DNA from: Dehalococcoidia bacterium
GTDB lineage: Bacteria > Chloroflexota > Dehalococcoidia > Tepidiformales > Tepidiformaceae
Reading direction: 5' to 3'
DNA length: 64,000 bases
NCBI GenBank assembly: GCA_020850615.1
Contig: JADZEI010000067.1
Location: 1-64,000, forward strand
Position 1 is the first letter of the stretch; each line of letters begins with the position of its first letter. The translations under genes were made by a program, and so were the position numbers. The notes beneath the pieces are model-generated. The model was not told the DNA's origin, searched no databases, and saw only the letters and a program-made list of their open reading frames with translations. This document shows, piece by piece, positions 2,363-64,000 of this stretch.

Positions 2363-4504
2363 TTACAGGTGCTGTTCCAAGTAGCCGAGCACGCGGCGCT
2401 CCTGGTACTCAAGGCCCTTCGCGTCGCGCGGCATGTGGCGCTCCTCCGGGAAGATCAGCGTGTCGTACTCCTTCTGCGCCGCCGCGAGCGCGACCATCAG
2501 CCGCGCCGTGTGCCGGAAGTGCACGTTCTCGTCGACCATGCCGTGGACCAGCATGAGCTTGCCGCGCAGCGCATCGACGTGCGCCATCACCGAGCTCTCG
2601 CGGTACCCCTCGGGGTTGCGCTGCGGCGTCGAGATGTACCGCTCGGTGTAGGCCGTGTCGTAGCCGTCCCAGTGCGTCACCGGCGCGCCCGCCACGCCGA
2701 CCCGGAACAGCTCCGGCTCGCGCAGCATCGCCATCAGCGTCGCATAGCCGCCGTAGCTCCAGCCGTAGATGCCCACCCGGCCGATGTCGACGAAGTCGTA
2801 GTTCGCGGCGAGCCAGCGCACCGCCGCCGCCTGGTCCTCGATCTCCACGCGGCCGGGCTCGCGGTGGATCGGCGCTTCGAAGGCGAGGCCCCGGTTCGCG
2901 CTGCCGCGGTTGTCGACCTTCAGCACGGCGAAGCCTCGCTGCGCGAGATACTGCGCCCGCAGGTCCACCGTCATCGACCAGTCGTCGATGACCCGCTGCG
3001 CGTGGGGCCCGCCATAGACCGAGACCACGAGCGGGTAGCGCTTCCCCGGTTCGAGCCGCGCCGGCCGGTAGAGCGCGCCGTAGAGCGTGGTTGCCCCGTC
3101 CGCCGCGGGGAGCGTCACGATCTCCGGCGGCGCCAGGCCGAGCTGCTCCGCCGTCACGTCCGGCGCCTCGAAGAGCACTGCCTCCTCGCCGCCGTCGCTC
3201 GTGCGGCGGAGGGTGATGCGCGCCGCCCGCTCGCGCGTGCTGTGGGTGTCGACGAAGCGCGTGCCGTCGGCCGAGACCACGCAATCGTGCCACCCGGCGC
3301 CCTCGGTAAGCCGCCGCACCTCGCCGCCATCGAGCGAGACCGCGTAGAGGTGCCGCTCGGTGACGCCGTCCTTCGTGCCCGAGAAGTAGGCCACGCGCGC
3401 CCGCTCGTCGAGCGAAACCAGCCGCGTCACGACCCACTCGCCGCTGGTGAGCGCCCGCAGCTCGCGGCCGTCCGGCGCGTGGAGCGAGAGGTGGCGGTAG
3501 CCTGTCGCCTCGCTCGACCGGAGGATCTCGCCGGTTTCGAGCAGGCGCGTGTCGTTCGAGAGGTTGAGCCACGGCTCGCTGTGCTCGTCGATGAGCCGTG
3601 TCGGTTCGCCGCCGGGGAATGCCAGCAGGCGCAGGTCGAGCTGGTCGCGTGAGAGCACCTGCGCGGTGAGCACACCGTCGGGCCGCCAGGCGACCCGCGC
3701 GAGATAGATGTCGTCGTCCTCGCCCGTGTCCAGCCAGTGGACCGCGCCGGACTCCACCTCCACCACGCCCAGCCGCAGCACGGCGTTCCGCTCGCCGGCG
3801 AAGGGGTAGTGGTGGTGCTCGATGTCGACCACGTCCTTGCCCTGGTGGACGACCGGGTAGACCGGGATGTGGCGTTCGTCGGCGCGGATAAAGGCGATAC
3901 GGCGGCCGGTCGGGTCCCACCAGAAGCCGCGGTCGCGGTCGAGCTCTTCCTGGGCCATGAACTCCGCGAGGCCGTTGGTCAGCCCGTCCCCGGCGTCGTG
4001 GGTCAGGCGGCGCGGCGCACCGCCCGGCACGGCCGCGACGTAGAGGTCGCCCGCGCGGACGAACGCGACCTGCGTGCCGTCGGGGCTGAGGTGCGGGTCG
4101 ATGGCGTTGTCGCAGCCGGGGAGCTCCTCCAGCGGCCCGCCATCGATGCTCACAAAGAGCCGGCCGCCGCCCGGCACGAGCAGCAGGGGCTTCGCGGCCG
4201 TGCGCGCCCACTGGTACGCGGTGACGCCAAGCTCGCGCAGCCGCGCCCGCTCGCGGCGGAACTCCTCTTCGCGCGACAGCTCGCCCTCGTTCGTCGAGGC
4301 GGGCGGCGGGCCGGCGAGCACGGTCCGCTCGCCCGTGGCGATGTCGTACCGCCAGAGGCTGCGCACCAGGCTGCCCTCGGCGCTGTACAGGTAGGTGACC
4401 GCGGCGCTGTCGGGCGTGAACCCGAGCGCGCCCGGGACGACCGCCCCCGGACGCGGGAAGGCGGCCACCTGTTCGATGGTCAGGGCTTCGTAGGGGCGGG
4501 TCAC
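2363..4504 (-). CDS. S9 family peptidase, dipeptidyl-peptidase IV-like
   Basis: The 713-residue product has an N-terminal beta-propeller (DPPIV_N) and a C-terminal alpha/beta hydrolase. The triad is readable: nucleophile Ser583 in GWSYGG, Asp658 in HGMVDEN, His690 in EERHMPR. The EE pair at EFMAQEELDRDRGFWW matches the substrate N-terminus-binding Glu motif of DPP-IV, so removal of X-Pro dipeptides is likely. No signal peptide is seen, which suggests a cytoplasmic enzyme. The start is GTG at 4504, sharing the bases GTGA with the stop of the upstream Xaa-Pro aminopeptidase. The open frame runs on upstream, but that part is a shadow of the neighbour. The pair forms a proline-peptide degradation unit. 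Confidence 0.9.
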   Translation of the reverse strand: MTRPYEALTIEQVAAFPRPGAVVPGALGFTPDSAAVTYLYSAEGSLVRSLWRYDIATGERTVLAGPPPASTNEGELSREEEFRRERARLRELGVTAYQWARTAAKPLLLVPGGGRLFVSIDGGPLEELPGCDNAIDPHLSPDGTQVAFVRAGDLYVAAVPGGAPRRLTHDAGDGLTNGLAEFMAQEELDRDRGFWWDPTGRRIAFIRADERHIPVYPVVHQGKDVVDIEHHHYPFAGERNAVLRLGVVEVESGAVHWLDTGEDDDIYLARVAWRPDGVLTAQVLSRDQLDLRLLAFPGGEPTRLIDEHSEPWLNLSNDTRLLETGEILRSSEATGYRHLSLHAPDGRELRALTSGEWVVTRLVSLDERARVAYFSGTKDGVTERHLYAVSLDGGEVRRLTEGAGWHDCVVSADGTRFVDTHSTRERAARITLRRTSDGGEEAVLFEAPDVTAEQLGLAPPEIVTLPAADGATTLYGALYRPARLEPGKRYPLVVSVYGGPHAQRVIDDWSMTVDLRAQYLAQRGFAVLKVDNRGSANRGLAFEAPIHREPGRVEIEDQAAAVRWLAANYDFVDIGRVGIYGWSYGGYATLMAMLREPELFRVGVAGAPVTHWDGYDTAYTERYISTPQRNPEGYRESSVMAHVDALRGKLMLVHGMVDENVHFRHTARLMVALAAAQKEYDTLIFPEERHMPRDAKGLEYQERRVLGYLEQHL

Positions 4505-46505: not shown

Positions 46506-46745
46506 GTGCGGTACTACTCGTTCGCCATCGTCATCGAGAAGGAGCCCGAGGACCCGGGCTACTTCGCCTATAGCCCAACGCTGCCGGGCTGCTTCAGCAA
46601 CGGGCTCACCATCGAAGAGACCCGGCGAAACATGTTCGATGCGGTCCAGCTCCACGTGGAGTCGATGATCGCCCACGGGGAAACGATCCCGCAGGGCGAG
46701 GGACCAGTGCATGTTGAGGAACTCACACTCGCGCTGCCTGCATGA
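46506..46745 (+). CDS. hicB: HicB family antitoxin
   Basis: The 79-residue product is a HicB/UPF0150 domain: RYYSFAIVIEKEPEDPGYFAYSPTLPGCFSNG, then TIEETRRNMFDAVQLHVESMIAHGE. The start is GTG 46506, with TATACT 6 bases upstream and no ribosome site (leaderless). The stop overlaps the HicA start (ATGA). It neutralises HicA. Confidence 0.88.
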   Translation: MRYYSFAIVIEKEPEDPGYFAYSPTLPGCFSNGLTIEETRRNMFDAVQLHVESMIAHGETIPQGEGPVHVEELTLALPA

Positions 46746-46966
46746 GCCGCCTGCCACAACTCAAGTCCGCGGAGTTGGTCGCGTTCTTCCGTCGCCAGGG
46801 CTTCGCCGACGACCGGCAGACTGGCAGTCATCTCACCCTTCTCCACCCGGACGGACGTCGCGTCACCGTTCCAGTGCACTCCGGGGCGGACCTTGGCCGC
46901 GGACTGGCAGTGCGGATACTCAAGGATGGCGGCTACACGGTGGACGATTACCTGCGTCTCCGGTAG
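46742..46966 (+). CDS. hicA: HicA family toxin
   Basis: The 74-residue product is a HicA dsRBD-like fold: LKSAELVAFFRRQGFADDRQ, TGSHLTL with catalytic His30, and HSGADLGRGLAVRILKDGG. It is an mRNA interferase paired with the overlapping HicB gene. It is the second complete HicBA locus in the window but not a close copy of the one at 18833-19293. Confidence 0.9.
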   Translation: MSRLPQLKSAELVAFFRRQGFADDRQTGSHLTLLHPDGRRVTVPVHSGADLGRGLAVRILKDGGYTVDDYLRLR

Positions 46967-47941: not shown

Positions 47942-47989
47942 TACCTTCTGGCCCCCGTCCGCGGCGGCAGCGTGCCGATACAGAAGGTA
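47942..47989 (+). promoter_or_regulatory. Inverted repeat masking the ribosome site of the REC-GGDEF gene
   Basis: TACCTTCTG (47942-47950) and CAGAAGGTA (47981-47989) are exact complements, 30 bases apart. The right arm contains the AGAAGG ribosome site for ATG 47993, so a folded mRNA would hide it. It could act as a thermosensor or ligand-responsive switch, or as a DNA operator. Confidence 0.5.
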
Positions 47990-47992
47990 ACC

Positions 47993-48961
47993 ATGTCTCG
48001 ACCAGCCCGATCCCTGCCGGCCCAGCGCGCGGTGCTTCGCGTCCTCCTCGTCGAGCCTTCGGTGGACGACACGCGCGCCGTCCGCGACCTCCTCAACGAG
48101 AGCGGCGACTACCGCGTGCACGCGGCCCGCGACCTGGACGAGGCGCGCACCCTGCTCGACGAGGGCCACTTCGATGCCGCGCTCGTGGAGTCGGGCCTCT
48201 GGCACGAAGATGGCGCCGGGCTCGTCCGGTTCATCCGCGAACGCCGCCCCGATGTGGCGATTGTCGTCATGACCAGCGCGGAGGATGAACGCGAGACGCT
48301 GCCCGCCCTCAAGCTCGGCGCGCACGACTTCGTGACCAAGCGCAACCTCGACACCGCCCAGCTGACCACCCGCATCGTCCTCGCCGTCGAAGAGAGCCGC
48401 GCGCTCCGCCGCAGGGACACGATGGTCCGCTGGCTCGAACGCGAAGCCCGCACCGACCACCTCACCGGGCTCTACAACCGCCGCGCCTTCGACGAACGCC
48501 TGCGCGACGCCTGCGCCATGGCCCGCACGCGCGACGAAGAGGTCGCCCTCGTCGTCGTCGACGTCGTCGGGACGCGCGTGGTGAACGAAGCGCACGGCCA
48601 CGAAGCCGGGGACGCGATGATCCGGCGCGCCGCACACGGCATCAGCCGCTGCCTGCGCGCGGGCGACTTCGCCGCGCGGATCGGGGGCGACGACTTCGGC
48701 ATCATCATCATCAACGGCGGCATCGAGCTCGGCCGGCGCATCGCCCGGCGGATCGCCCACGAAGTCGAGCGCTTGAACGACGAGGACTGGTCCGATTCGA
48801 TCCCCGTGTCGCTCGTCTTCGGCGTGGCCAGCGGGCGCGCCCCCGATGCAACAGACCTCTTCGCCGCTGCGGAAGACGGTGTGACCGCGCACGGTCCCGC
48901 CCGGCCCGCGGTGGCGTATTTCCCGTTCTGGGAGGACTCAGATGGCCCCTCGGTCGCCTGA
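47993..48961 (+). CDS. Pseudo-receiver plus degenerate GGDEF protein
   Basis: The 322-residue product has an N-terminal REC-like domain (about 12-132) in which the phospho-acceptor Asp is Glu66 (ALVESGLW) and the acidic pair is EP, while Thr and Lys (VVMTSA, FVTKRN) remain. A GGDEF domain (about 152-300) has GGDDF at 231-235, the second metal Asp lost (VVDVVGT) and an intact I-site RxxD (222-225) five residues before it. Phosphorylation-independent signalling and weak or no cyclase activity are likely. It overlaps the next gene by 20 bases. Confidence 0.82.
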   Translation: MSRPARSLPAQRAVLRVLLVEPSVDDTRAVRDLLNESGDYRVHAARDLDEARTLLDEGHFDAALVESGLWHEDGAGLVRFIRERRPDVAIVVMTSAEDERETLPALKLGAHDFVTKRNLDTAQLTTRIVLAVEESRALRRRDTMVRWLEREARTDHLTGLYNRRAFDERLRDACAMARTRDEEVALVVVDVVGTRVVNEAHGHEAGDAMIRRAAHGISRCLRAGDFAARIGGDDFGIIIINGGIELGRRIARRIAHEVERLNDEDWSDSIPVSLVFGVASGRAPDATDLFAAAEDGVTAHGPARPAVAYFPFWEDSDGPSVA

Positions 48962-49733
48962 AACCGCGCCCCGGCGGCTCCTGCGCGCTGGCGCGAACAT
49001 CACGCCGTATCTCGCTGCCTCGGCGACGACCGTCGTCGCCGCGCAGGCGATCTTCCCCACGAATGTGCCGCTCGCGGCGGGCATCACGGGCCTCGCCTGG
49101 GTGGGGGTCATCGTCGGCCGCGTGGCCCAGCGGTTCGCACCCGTCGTCGTCACGGAGGTCCGCGAGAACCCGGTGACGACGCTCATCGACGGCGAGTCCG
49201 GGCTCGGCAATGCCCGCCAGCTCGAAGAAGTGCTGCACCGCGAAATCGCGCGCAGCGTCCGCTACGGCGACCGCAGCGCCCTCGGCGTGTTCGACATCCA
49301 GGTCGGCGGATTCAACCCGGTGACGCCCGGCGACCAGCCGCCATCACCCGCCCGCTACGTGGCCCAGACGCTCGTGAACAGTGTCCGCGAAGCCGACACC
49401 GTGCTCCGGCTGGACCGCACGCGCTTCGTGGTCCTGCTCGCCGAATGCCCCCAGGAAGAGGGCGAGAAGCTCGTCGCCCGGCTTCGCACGCAGCTCAGCA
49501 CCACGCCCTACGGCCGGAACGCGGACGGTTCGGGGATCTACGTGCGGGCATGGGGAGCGCTGGCGGAGTGGGACCCGGCCTACCGCTCGCCCGAGACCTA
49601 CATGCGCGCCGCGCTGATCAAGCTCGAAGAGAGCCGCGGCGAATACGAGGCCGCGCAGGTCTGGTTCTCCGGGCAGCTCAACCCCGACCGGCGCCTCGCG
49701 CCGCCGCACCAGGCCCACAAAGAGACCGCCTGA
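48942..49733 (+). CDS. Membrane-anchored degenerate GGDEF protein
   Basis: The 263-residue product has one or two N-terminal TM helices (about 22-62) followed by a GGDEF-like domain that starts NPVTTLIDGESGLGNARQLEEVL. The signature motif is replaced by DRTRF (158-162), but RxxD (READ, 149-152) is still exactly five residues upstream. It cannot make c-di-GMP but may bind it. It is co-translated with the pseudo-receiver GGDEF gene by a 20-base overlap. Confidence 0.72.
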   Translation: MAPRSPETAPRRLLRAGANITPYLAASATTVVAAQAIFPTNVPLAAGITGLAWVGVIVGRVAQRFAPVVVTEVRENPVTTLIDGESGLGNARQLEEVLHREIARSVRYGDRSALGVFDIQVGGFNPVTPGDQPPSPARYVAQTLVNSVREADTVLRLDRTRFVVLLAECPQEEGEKLVARLRTQLSTTPYGRNADGSGIYVRAWGALAEWDPAYRSPETYMRAALIKLEESRGEYEAAQVWFSGQLNPDRRLAPPHQAHKETA

Positions 49734-49736
49734 GGC

Positions 49737-50705
49737 TCAGGCGCGGCCGGGCAGCGGCGGGACGTCCCACACCAGGGTGCTGGGGCCCGGGCGAAGCAGC
49801 GGCTTCACCACGCCATCCGCGATGACCACGATCAGGTCGTAACCTGCATACAGTGACGGGTCCATGCCGCGTAGCGCCCACGACAGCTTCTCGTCTTCGG
49901 CATAGGTCGCGCTGCCGAGCACGACCAGCGCCCGCGCATCGGCCTGGACGCCGAGCGTGGGGCTCGCCTCGCGCAGGAGCTGCCGCAGGTTCCGGCGGAG
50001 GGCCGCGCTCTGCTCGTCCGTCTCGTACTCGGGCGAACCGAGCACGTAGGACCCGCCCTCGCCGAGATCGTTCACCGTCCAGGCGTCCTCGGCCGTGATC
50101 GTCACCGAGTCGTCGACGTCCGGCTGGCCGGCGGCGAGGACGATGCGCTCGGCGAGCTCGTCCCGTTCGGACTGGCGTGCCGGCATGCGCATGAGCTCGA
50201 GCGAGTTGAGCTGGAAGCTGCCGGGGACGCGGTTCGTGAACTGCGCCCAGCTCGCCGCCAGCCCGCCGAGGATGCTCAGCACCGAGCCCGTGGTGCTCGT
50301 CCGGCGGAGGTAGAGCTCGACTGGCAGGCGCAGTTCCTTGCGCCCGTCCTCCAGCTGCGCCGCCGCATCCAGCCCGAGCACGAACTCGGAGACATCCGGT
50401 TCGCCCATCGGCAGGGCCGCGCCGCGCGGCACCCAGAGCACCACCGAGTGGCCGGCGCCGTCCAGGCGCTGCTCCAGGGCCGCTCGCGCCGCCTCCCAGG
50501 CGACGTTCGTCTCCGGGCGCAGGGTATCGAGCACGGCCAGCGCCAGCGTCCACTGGCGGCCCACGCCGACGGTCGCGGCGATGCCGTGTCCCGTGCGTTC
50601 TTCGCTGCCGACCCTCGTGGCACGCGCGTACGTGGCCCCGAACCAGCGAAGGAACAGGCGCAGCGCCGCCTCCGCGGGTTCGGCCGGGTACGTACGTCCT
50701 GGCAC
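49737..50705 (-). CDS. Hypothetical protein downstream of rplY
   Basis: The 322-residue product has no recognised family. There is an N-terminal helical region (EAALRLFLRWFGATYARA), a middle with LRLPVELYLRRTST, and a C-terminal Rossmann-like stretch (ARALVVLGSATYAEDEKL, YDLIVVIADG). It starts 4 bases after the rplY stop and is probably co-transcribed with it. It converges with the GGDEF gene at a 3-base gap. Confidence 0.65.
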   Translation of the reverse strand: MPGRTYPAEPAEAALRLFLRWFGATYARATRVGSEERTGHGIAATVGVGRQWTLALAVLDTLRPETNVAWEAARAALEQRLDGAGHSVVLWVPRGAALPMGEPDVSEFVLGLDAAAQLEDGRKELRLPVELYLRRTSTTGSVLSILGGLAASWAQFTNRVPGSFQLNSLELMRMPARQSERDELAERIVLAAGQPDVDDSVTITAEDAWTVNDLGEGGSYVLGSPEYETDEQSAALRRNLRQLLREASPTLGVQADARALVVLGSATYAEDEKLSWALRGMDPSLYAGYDLIVVIADGVVKPLLRPGPSTLVWDVPPLPGRA

Positions 50706-62877: not shown

Positions 62878-63489
62878 CTAGGCCGCGTGCTTCTGCCCGG
62901 CCGTGTCGAACTGCTCGGCGATGGCGCGGACCATGTTCCGGATGAACGCCGCCTGGGCCGGTTCGAGCTCGTGGAAGCGAAGGTGGAGGATCGTGCCCGT
63001 CTCGGCGGCGGTCGTCCCGACCACCTCGCAGCGGAGCGTGGCCGCGTAGCCGTCGAGCCAGAGCGGCACCTGCACGAACTTCGCCCGCACCGGGACCTTC
63101 ACCTCCACCGAGAGCCCGCCCGTGGAGATGTCGAGCACCGTGCCAGGCAGGAAGCTCTCGCTGTCGTCCGGCTGGACGCGCGTACCCACATGCAGCGGGA
63201 AGCGCGGCGATTGGCGCGGGTCGAACGCCTTCCACGGGCGGAGCAGGCTGAAGACGGCCAGCTCGCCCCGGCACATCGCGAACGCGGCCGGCGCCGAGAG
63301 CCGCTCCCGGCCGCTCCCGCGGACGAGCATGACCCGGTCCTGCGGCTGCCACCGCGCCTGCGTCCCCGGCGGCAGCTCGAGCGCCACACCGCTGTTGTTC
63401 GAACGCGCGACGGTGCCGTCGAGGCACTGCGAACGGCCGGCCTGGAGCCACACGACCCGGACAGCGGAGGTCGCACTCTCGCTGCTCAT
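62878..63489 (-). CDS. PilZ domain c-di-GMP-binding protein
   Basis: The 203-residue product has an N-terminal YcgR-like region (about 1-85) and a C-terminal PilZ domain with RxxxR (RQSPR, 92-96) and DxSxxG (DISTGG, 120-125), both intact for c-di-GMP binding. It is the only intact c-di-GMP receptor signature in the window besides the I-sites of the degenerate GGDEF pair. Start ATG 63489. Confidence 0.85.
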   Translation of the reverse strand: MSSESATSAVRVVWLQAGRSQCLDGTVARSNNSGVALELPPGTQARWQPQDRVMLVRGSGRERLSAPAAFAMCRGELAVFSLLRPWKAFDPRQSPRFPLHVGTRVQPDDSESFLPGTVLDISTGGLSVEVKVPVRAKFVQVPLWLDGYAATLRCEVVGTTAAETGTILHLRFHELEPAQAAFIRNMVRAIAEQFDTAGQKHAA

Positions 63490-63559
63490 ATGTGGACTAT
63501 CGAGCGATAGACGCGGTCGAACAGTCCTGCTTACCGGCAATTCGTCTACGATGAGACGA

Positions 63560-64000
63560 ATGCAGCCCGCCGACGGCACGATCGCTGGCCCCGCGACGAC
63601 CCTCCGCCTGCGCCGCATGGCTACCGCCGACATCCCGGCCGTCATGGCCATCGAGCACGCCGCCTACGATTCCGGCTGGCCGCCCACGGCGTTCGAACGC
63701 GAGCTCACCACCAATGCCATGGCCCGCTACATCGTCCTCGAACGCCACGGGGGCGGCGCGCCGGGCATCATCGGCTTCGCCGGCATGTGGCTCATGGTCG
63801 ACCAGGCGCACGTCGTGACCGTCGCCGTGAACCCCGCGGAGCGCCGCACCGGCTACGGCCGCCTCCTCCTCCACGCCCTCCTCGACCTCGCCATCCGCGA
63901 CGCCGCGACGGACGCCACGCTCGAGGTCCGCGTCTCGAACGAGGCAGCGCGCGCGCTCTACCGCGCCTACGGCTTCTGGGAGGTCGGCGAGCGCAAGCGC
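63560..64000 (+). CDS. rimI: RimI-like ribosomal-protein-alanine acetyltransferase (partial)
   Basis: 147 codons are visible before the window ends, so the C-terminus is missing. The GNAT domain has LRLRRMATADIPAVMAIEHAA, TVAVNPAERRTGYGRLLLHALL (R/QxxGxG/A) and SNEAARALYRAYGFWEVGER, all RimI-like. A TACGAT box (63547-63552) lies 7 bases before ATG 63560, which favours this over ATG 63551. It is divergent from the PilZ gene. Confidence 0.85.
   Translation, partial: MQPADGTIAGPATTLRLRRMATADIPAVMAIEHAAYDSGWPPTAFERELTTNAMARYIVLERHGGGAPGIIGFAGMWLMVDQAHVVTVAVNPAERRTGYGRLLLHALLDLAIRDAATDATLEVRVSNEAARALYRAYGFWEVGERKR

Follow-up and report, generated by a model that had tools for sequence, protein, structure and literature searches.

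Several c-di-GMP receptors are built on degenerate GGDEF domains. One report (PMC3509222, citing Duerig 2009 for PopA) presents PopA and SgmT as receptors with a dead A-site and an intact I-site. PopA of Caulobacter combines receiver and GGDEF domains with a degenerate A-site and an intact I-site according to the same report, a combination shared with the protein P1 described below, and ActA of Myxococcus likewise has a single receiver, a degenerate A-site, and an intact I-site; no partner gene like P2 is described for ActA there (PMC3509222). The GGDEF domain of SgmT, also from Myxococcus, has lost the A-site and the K442 and R446 positions, keeps RxxD and a further I-site arginine, and binds c-di-GMP via the I-site (PMC3509222). 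PelD and BcsE are degenerate GGDEF folds that sense c-di-GMP by RxxD, and BcsE, a soluble protein, acts together with BcsF, a small membrane protein; it is an example of a soluble c-di-GMP receptor acting through a membrane partner (PMC7439463).

A pair of GGDEF genes, encoding P1 and P2, was analysed in the window (the whole stretch of 64,000 nucleotides from the contig of a Dehalococcoidia bacterium). Two open reading frames with a 20-base overlap had been reported in a first-pass annotation; the pair is real and lies at the coordinates claimed (table 1). The order of the surrounding genes (orfX, bL25, ferredoxin, and PHP) is kept in many genomes and the contig is therefore not a contaminant. 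No effector gene linked to P1 and P2 was found at the locus, where the neighbours are mostly housekeeping genes, and PelD and BcsE belong to exopolysaccharide secretion operons whereas no exopolysaccharide secretion genes adjoin P1 and P2. A HicA-type toxin gene (46742-46966; PF07927, 6.5e-15), preceded by a probable HicB-like frame, is located upstream of P1. Convergent with P2 is a gene on the minus strand (49737-50705) for a 322-aa protein without a Pfam match, which occupies the same place in many genomes of the family (52-66% identity).

Table 1. Features of the P1–P2 locus, in positions of the window.
Feature	Position	Strand	Remarks
Conserved element GCCGATAC	47974..47981	+	GCCGAT in 20/22 regions upstream of P1, mostly GCCGATAC
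P1 gene	47993..48961	+	receiver and GGDEF protein, 322 aa (stop included); ORF and orthologues
P1 receiver (pseudo-receiver) domain	48041..48376	+	residues 17-128; PF00072; active-site columns variable
Glu66 codon, phospho-acceptor column	48188..48190	+	column D9 E5 A5 S3 G1 in 23 sequences
P1 GGDEF domain	48449..48874	+	residues 153-294; PF00990, 2.3e-25; AF2 model
P1 I-site RAGD (222-225; R222, D225)	48656..48667	+	RxxD in 23/23 orthologues
P1 signature GGDDF (231-235)	48683..48697	+	sequence and alignment
P1 Arg253 (PleD R390 equivalent)	48749..48751	+	23/23
P1/P2 stop/start overlap	48942..48961	+	20 nt; equal length in 9/14 genomes
P2 gene	48942..49733	+	membrane segment and degenerate GGDEF protein, 263 aa
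P1 C-terminal motif GPSVA-COOH	48944..48958	+	GP[SFY][VI]A in 23/23; tail predicted disordered
P2 hydrophobic segment, probable membrane	49062..49127	+	residues 41-62; Kyte-Doolittle maximum 1.73
P2 Arg104 (PleD R313 equivalent)	49251..49253	+	invariant 14/14
P2 I-site READ (149-152; R149, D152)	49386..49397	+	invariant 14/14
P2 DRTRF replacing GGDEF (158-162)	49413..49427	+	motif lost 14/14
P2 Arg180 (PleD R390 equivalent)	49479..49481	+	invariant 14/14

Pfam recognises a partial GGDEF domain in P2 (residues 139-231, 1e-8; 35.6 bits against a curated cut-off of 23.8 for PF00990), and 13/13 members of the P2 alignment A2 (columns 43% identical on average) match PF00990 at E 0.01 or better. The annotation had read GGDDF in P1 and DRTRF in P2 in place of GGDEF, each preceded at five residues by RxxD; both motifs are present and an alignment to PleD places RxxD in the I-site register in both proteins. 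Among the 14 P2 sequences the GGDEF position is occupied by DRTRF, DEHHF, DGTRF, DLTHF, GKQRF, and others. The guanine-binding Asp (D344 position) is replaced by Pro in all 14 sequences. P2 has Thr at position 370 and no consensus at the N335 position, and of the four metal and guanine ligands it retains D118 alone. All PleD I-site positions (R313, R359, D362, and R390) are kept, as R104, R149, D152, and R180 of P2, and account for four of the 12 invariant columns of the domain (D83, R104, R107, P134, A141, R149, D152, R156, F162, R180, A223, and A224; hypergeometric P ~2e-5 among 156 columns, P 4e-4 for charged columns only). R313 is the I-site arginine that reaches across the dimer. Because the A-site is lost while the complete I-site, RxxD in register together with the supporting arginines, is invariant in 14/14 sequences, the reading of P2 as a putative, enzymatically dead I-site receptor for c-di-GMP is well supported by comparative evidence. 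GGDEF structures with bound c-di-GMP are the best matches to the domain model of P2 (pLDDT >90; 3ign: Z 20.6, 155 residues aligned at rmsd 3.1; PleD 9g86: Z 19.9), a predicted common fold that alone is no proof of function.

Two arginines outside the I-site (R107 and R156) are also invariant, as would be expected if the I-site arginines of P2 served folding or contacts with proteins and P2 did not bind c-di-GMP; P2 could then be a pure dimerisation module. This appears unlikely given that four out of four I-site positions are kept while only the Phe survives of the A-site motif, and that intact GGDEF domains fold without RxxD. RxxD is present in all 37 P1 and P2 sequences versus 44 out of 72 intact GGDEF domains drawn from this genome and its relatives (Fisher 1e-6, an optimistic value as the sequences are related). 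The 28 domains without RxxD usually miss both residues, and RxxD is therefore dispensable for the fold. A less biased sample of intact domains contained RxxD in 20 out of 40, and the literature gives 44-57% of GGDEF domains (PMC3974145). Within the genome of the window, RxxD occurs in two of eight intact versus four of five degenerate GGDEF domains (Fisher P 0.09); the remaining degenerate domain has GESD in its place and belongs to a membrane protein with EGPVF in which the I-site Arg is missing (L206, contig C11, minus strand). Other degenerate membrane GGDEF proteins of this genome carry RTSD together with DAQRF (L204, contig C55, frame from base 1114, plus strand) or GGHRF (L205, contig C86, frame 3013-4035). 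Homologues of L204 in relatives (L023, L025, and L030) display DETRF or DDTRF and represent a further lineage with a dead A-site and a retained I-site.

P1 matches Response_reg (residues 17-128) and GGDEF (residues 153-294; 2.3e-25, 89.7 bits against the cut-off of 23.8). The nearest solved structures to its model, for which distant receiver-GGDEF loci were used as alignments, are the receiver-GGDEF cyclases DgcR (6zxb, Z 22.0), WspR (3bre, Z 21.1), and PleD (9g86, Z 20.8), from which P1 differs by GGDDF, by DVVGTR, by a degenerate receiver, and by a C-terminal motif. PopA has two receivers and, by description, is unlike P1 with its single receiver, partly intact nucleotide pocket, and conserved C-terminal pentapeptide. 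The I-site residues R222, D225, and R253 are conserved in 23/23 P1 sequences, but P1 has no Arg equivalent to R313. Its A-site is only partly lost. A metal Asp had been called lost in P1, which is wrong: D190 and D233, the equivalents of the PleD metal ligands D327 and E370, are present, and the Asp that is missing is the second one of DxD (V192). The guanine ligands N198 (N335) and D207 (D344) are also in place. Further losses are K332, changed to Arg, and Lys442 (in this sequence); DxDxFK reads DVVGTR, with FK turned into TR, and E371 is Asp. Judged from the aligned residues, P1 is thus less degenerate, and P2 more degenerate, than the annotation held.

The conservation of these residues (D327 equivalent in 20/23, N335 equivalent in 22/23, D344 equivalent in 23/23, and Asp at E370 in 21/23) would suit a diguanylate cyclase of full or weak activity, with an odd GGDDF site and ordinary I-site feedback inhibition, and P2 as its dead membrane regulatory partner. 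HK..R is kept near K442/R446 in several orthologues, RxxD is also present in most intact cyclases, and GSU1937, a protein with GGDDF, made cyclic dinucleotides in cells, whereas PA3258 with the same motif had no activity (PMC8835794). The altered DxDxFK motif and the missing K442 of P1 argue against a cyclase, as do the orthologues that have lost the metal Asp (to Asn or Gln, three sequences) or carry a broken A-site (AGDTF, GPAEF, or EGGRF) and still keep RxxD. A cyclase function of P1 is regarded as possible but doubtful. Neither GGDDF in P1 nor DRTRF in P2 conforms to the active-cyclase signature [G/A/S]G[D/E]E[F/Y]; since GGDDF can be active, this weakens the family claim and not a possible activity of P1. 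It has to be considered as well that P1 may be a GTP-binding pseudo-enzyme and that the pair may compare GTP, bound at the A-site of P1, with c-di-GMP at the I-site of P2, as N198 and D207 are almost invariant though K332, D329, and K442 are changed. The same conservation is equally expected for an active enzyme and the GTP comparison is quite improbable. Receptor, GTP-binding pseudo-enzyme, and weak cyclase are all conceivable roles of P1. The proposal of a c-di-GMP-sensing pair rather than cyclases is well supported for P2; for P1 sensing is no more than a possibility, since P1 retains its ligands for nucleotide and metal and activity has been demonstrated for a GGDDF domain (GSU1937).

The receiver of P1 carries E21-P22 and E66 in place of residues of the phosphorylatable set, of which T94 and K116 are kept. 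It looks like a pseudo-receiver in this genome because the full set survives among the 23 sequences only in three genomes of a single genus (G007, G030, and G027). The alignment confirms that Glu66 occupies the phospho-acceptor column, a position at which the PleD adaptor receiver has no Asp either. The suggestion that the Glu mimics constant phosphorylation was rejected as a family feature, as the residue at position 66 varies among D, E, A, S, and G. WspR D70E has been used as an active cyclase (PMC8835794), and Glu66 may act as a mimic in the protein or lineage of the window alone and not as a conserved mechanism.

The free C-terminus reads GP[SFY][VI]A in each of the 23 P1 proteins. The motif, with varying synonymous codons, persists in genomes that lack P2 or the overlap, and the idea that the tail merely results from the overlapping genes was therefore rejected. 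Residues 304-322 are predicted to be disordered (AF2), and the tail looks like a short binding peptide. The coding pattern of GPSVA and stop, GGNCCNTCNGTNGCNTRA (one Ser codon box, TAA/TGA stops), is found once in the genome, in P1. The tail had been compared with a tmRNA degradation tag; ARAGORN identified no tmRNA at the locus. The fixed C-terminal peptide offers a direct handle on the output of P1, to which the binding partner of the peptide would be the best lead.

Orthologues of P1 (E 1e-30 or better) were identified in 22 further genomes, among them Tepidiforma flava, all within the family of the window, and in 0 out of 24 genomes that belong to the class but not to this family. A scan of a separate collection of genome contigs, which may omit records near the window, returned only T. 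flava as a close match to P1, and a first P2 scan of this collection gave no match. P2 is located directly downstream of P1 in 13 of the 22 genomes, making 14 pairs with that of the window, and the pair and its overlap are kept across genera. P1 lacks an adjacent P2 in 9/23 genomes and the pair is therefore not obligatory. At eight of these nine loci the place of P2 is taken by an opposite-strand reading frame that looks MeaB-like by eye, and at the ninth there is no gap; on the P1 tree the genomes that have lost P2 cluster in a clade to which Tepidiforma belongs. Nine of the 14 genomes with the pair have an overlap of exactly 20 nt. The other five have a later P2 start and miss the hydrophobic segment, so that membrane anchoring tracks the overlap and is not universal. 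One soluble and one membrane-bound protein, as the annotation proposed, fits the genome of the window, where the segment is weak (it is stronger in several orthologues), but not these five relatives.

Both genes are under purifying selection. Between genomes G017 and G023, P2 has a dN/dS of 0.19 and P1 one of 0.12; three closer P1 pairs give 0.06-0.17, and the most diverged pair, in which synonymous sites are saturated, gives ~0.4. Degenerate motifs and a variable receiver site might be taken to indicate decaying paralogues without function. The dN/dS of 0.06-0.19 in the closer pairs, the long open frames in many genera, and the invariant C-terminal tail make such decay extremely improbable. 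Many of the P1 and P2 sequences come from close relatives and the conservation counts overstate their independence.

The genome of the window encodes 13 GGDEF, 3 EAL, and 2 PilZ domains, and the c-di-GMP ligand is therefore probably made. P1 is absent from 10 out of 10 genomes of the same family without GGDEF matches. A PilZ-domain protein (62878-63651, minus strand; PF07238, 2.6e-11), a candidate c-di-GMP effector, is encoded 13 kb downstream in the window.

The explanation preferred here, with moderate confidence, is that P2 is a c-di-GMP receptor with a dead A-site and P1 its coupled soluble relay partner. P2 would be a catalytically dead GGDEF protein that uses its I-site as the receptor and is probably tethered to the membrane in this genome. 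P1 would be the translationally coupled, soluble partner, built from a pseudo-receiver, a stalk helix, a GGDEF domain in which the I-site is kept and the nucleotide pocket largely so, a flexible tail, and the fixed C-terminal peptide. c-di-GMP from other cyclases of the cell would bind to the I-site of P2, and probably to that of P1 too; binding would change the association of P1 with P2, and P1 would relay the change via the GPSVA tail to a target. In functional terms P2 fits the class of receptors with a dead A-site and an intact I-site to which SgmT and PopA belong, although SgmT is a soluble hybrid kinase and P2 is short, has a membrane segment, and lacks a kinase. The pair appears to be a variant within this class by its pairing, its intact four-residue I-site, and the P1 tail, and is confined to one family as far as searched. 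A literature search for c-di-GMP receptors in Tepidiforma found no paper, and the few papers on Chloroflexota and GGDEF were off the subject by title. A family-wide receptor candidate with an invariant I-site and no active site would be a clean test case for the evolution of an enzyme into a sensor.

The two proteins might also form a single, two-protein receptor, in which c-di-GMP bridges a P1–P2 complex through the I-site of one protein and, for the other, the R313-type Arg of P2, P1 is recruited to the membrane, and GPSVA is exposed to or hidden from a partner, for example a protease or a peptide-binding domain. Such bridging is unlikely to be the case. If true, c-di-GMP would govern localisation or proteolysis in a lineage of Chloroflexota through a two-protein receptor of a kind not described before; on the ordinary reading alone, the pair extends the PopA/SgmT class by one member.

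The conserved element upstream of P1 is possibly an alternative-sigma promoter or an operator; GCCGATA has a background expectation of ~0.009 per 90 nt. As two FliA/WhiG-type sigma factors and flagellins are encoded in the genome, a flagellin-like sigma-28 promoter was weighed. GCCGATA was not found in the flagellin loci, nor TAAA at -35 of P1. A loosely conserved CCCTC precedes the GCCGAT element by ~15-17 nt, and the copy in the window abuts a 9-bp inverted repeat, TACCTTCTG...CAGAAGGTA (47942-47950 / 47981-47989).
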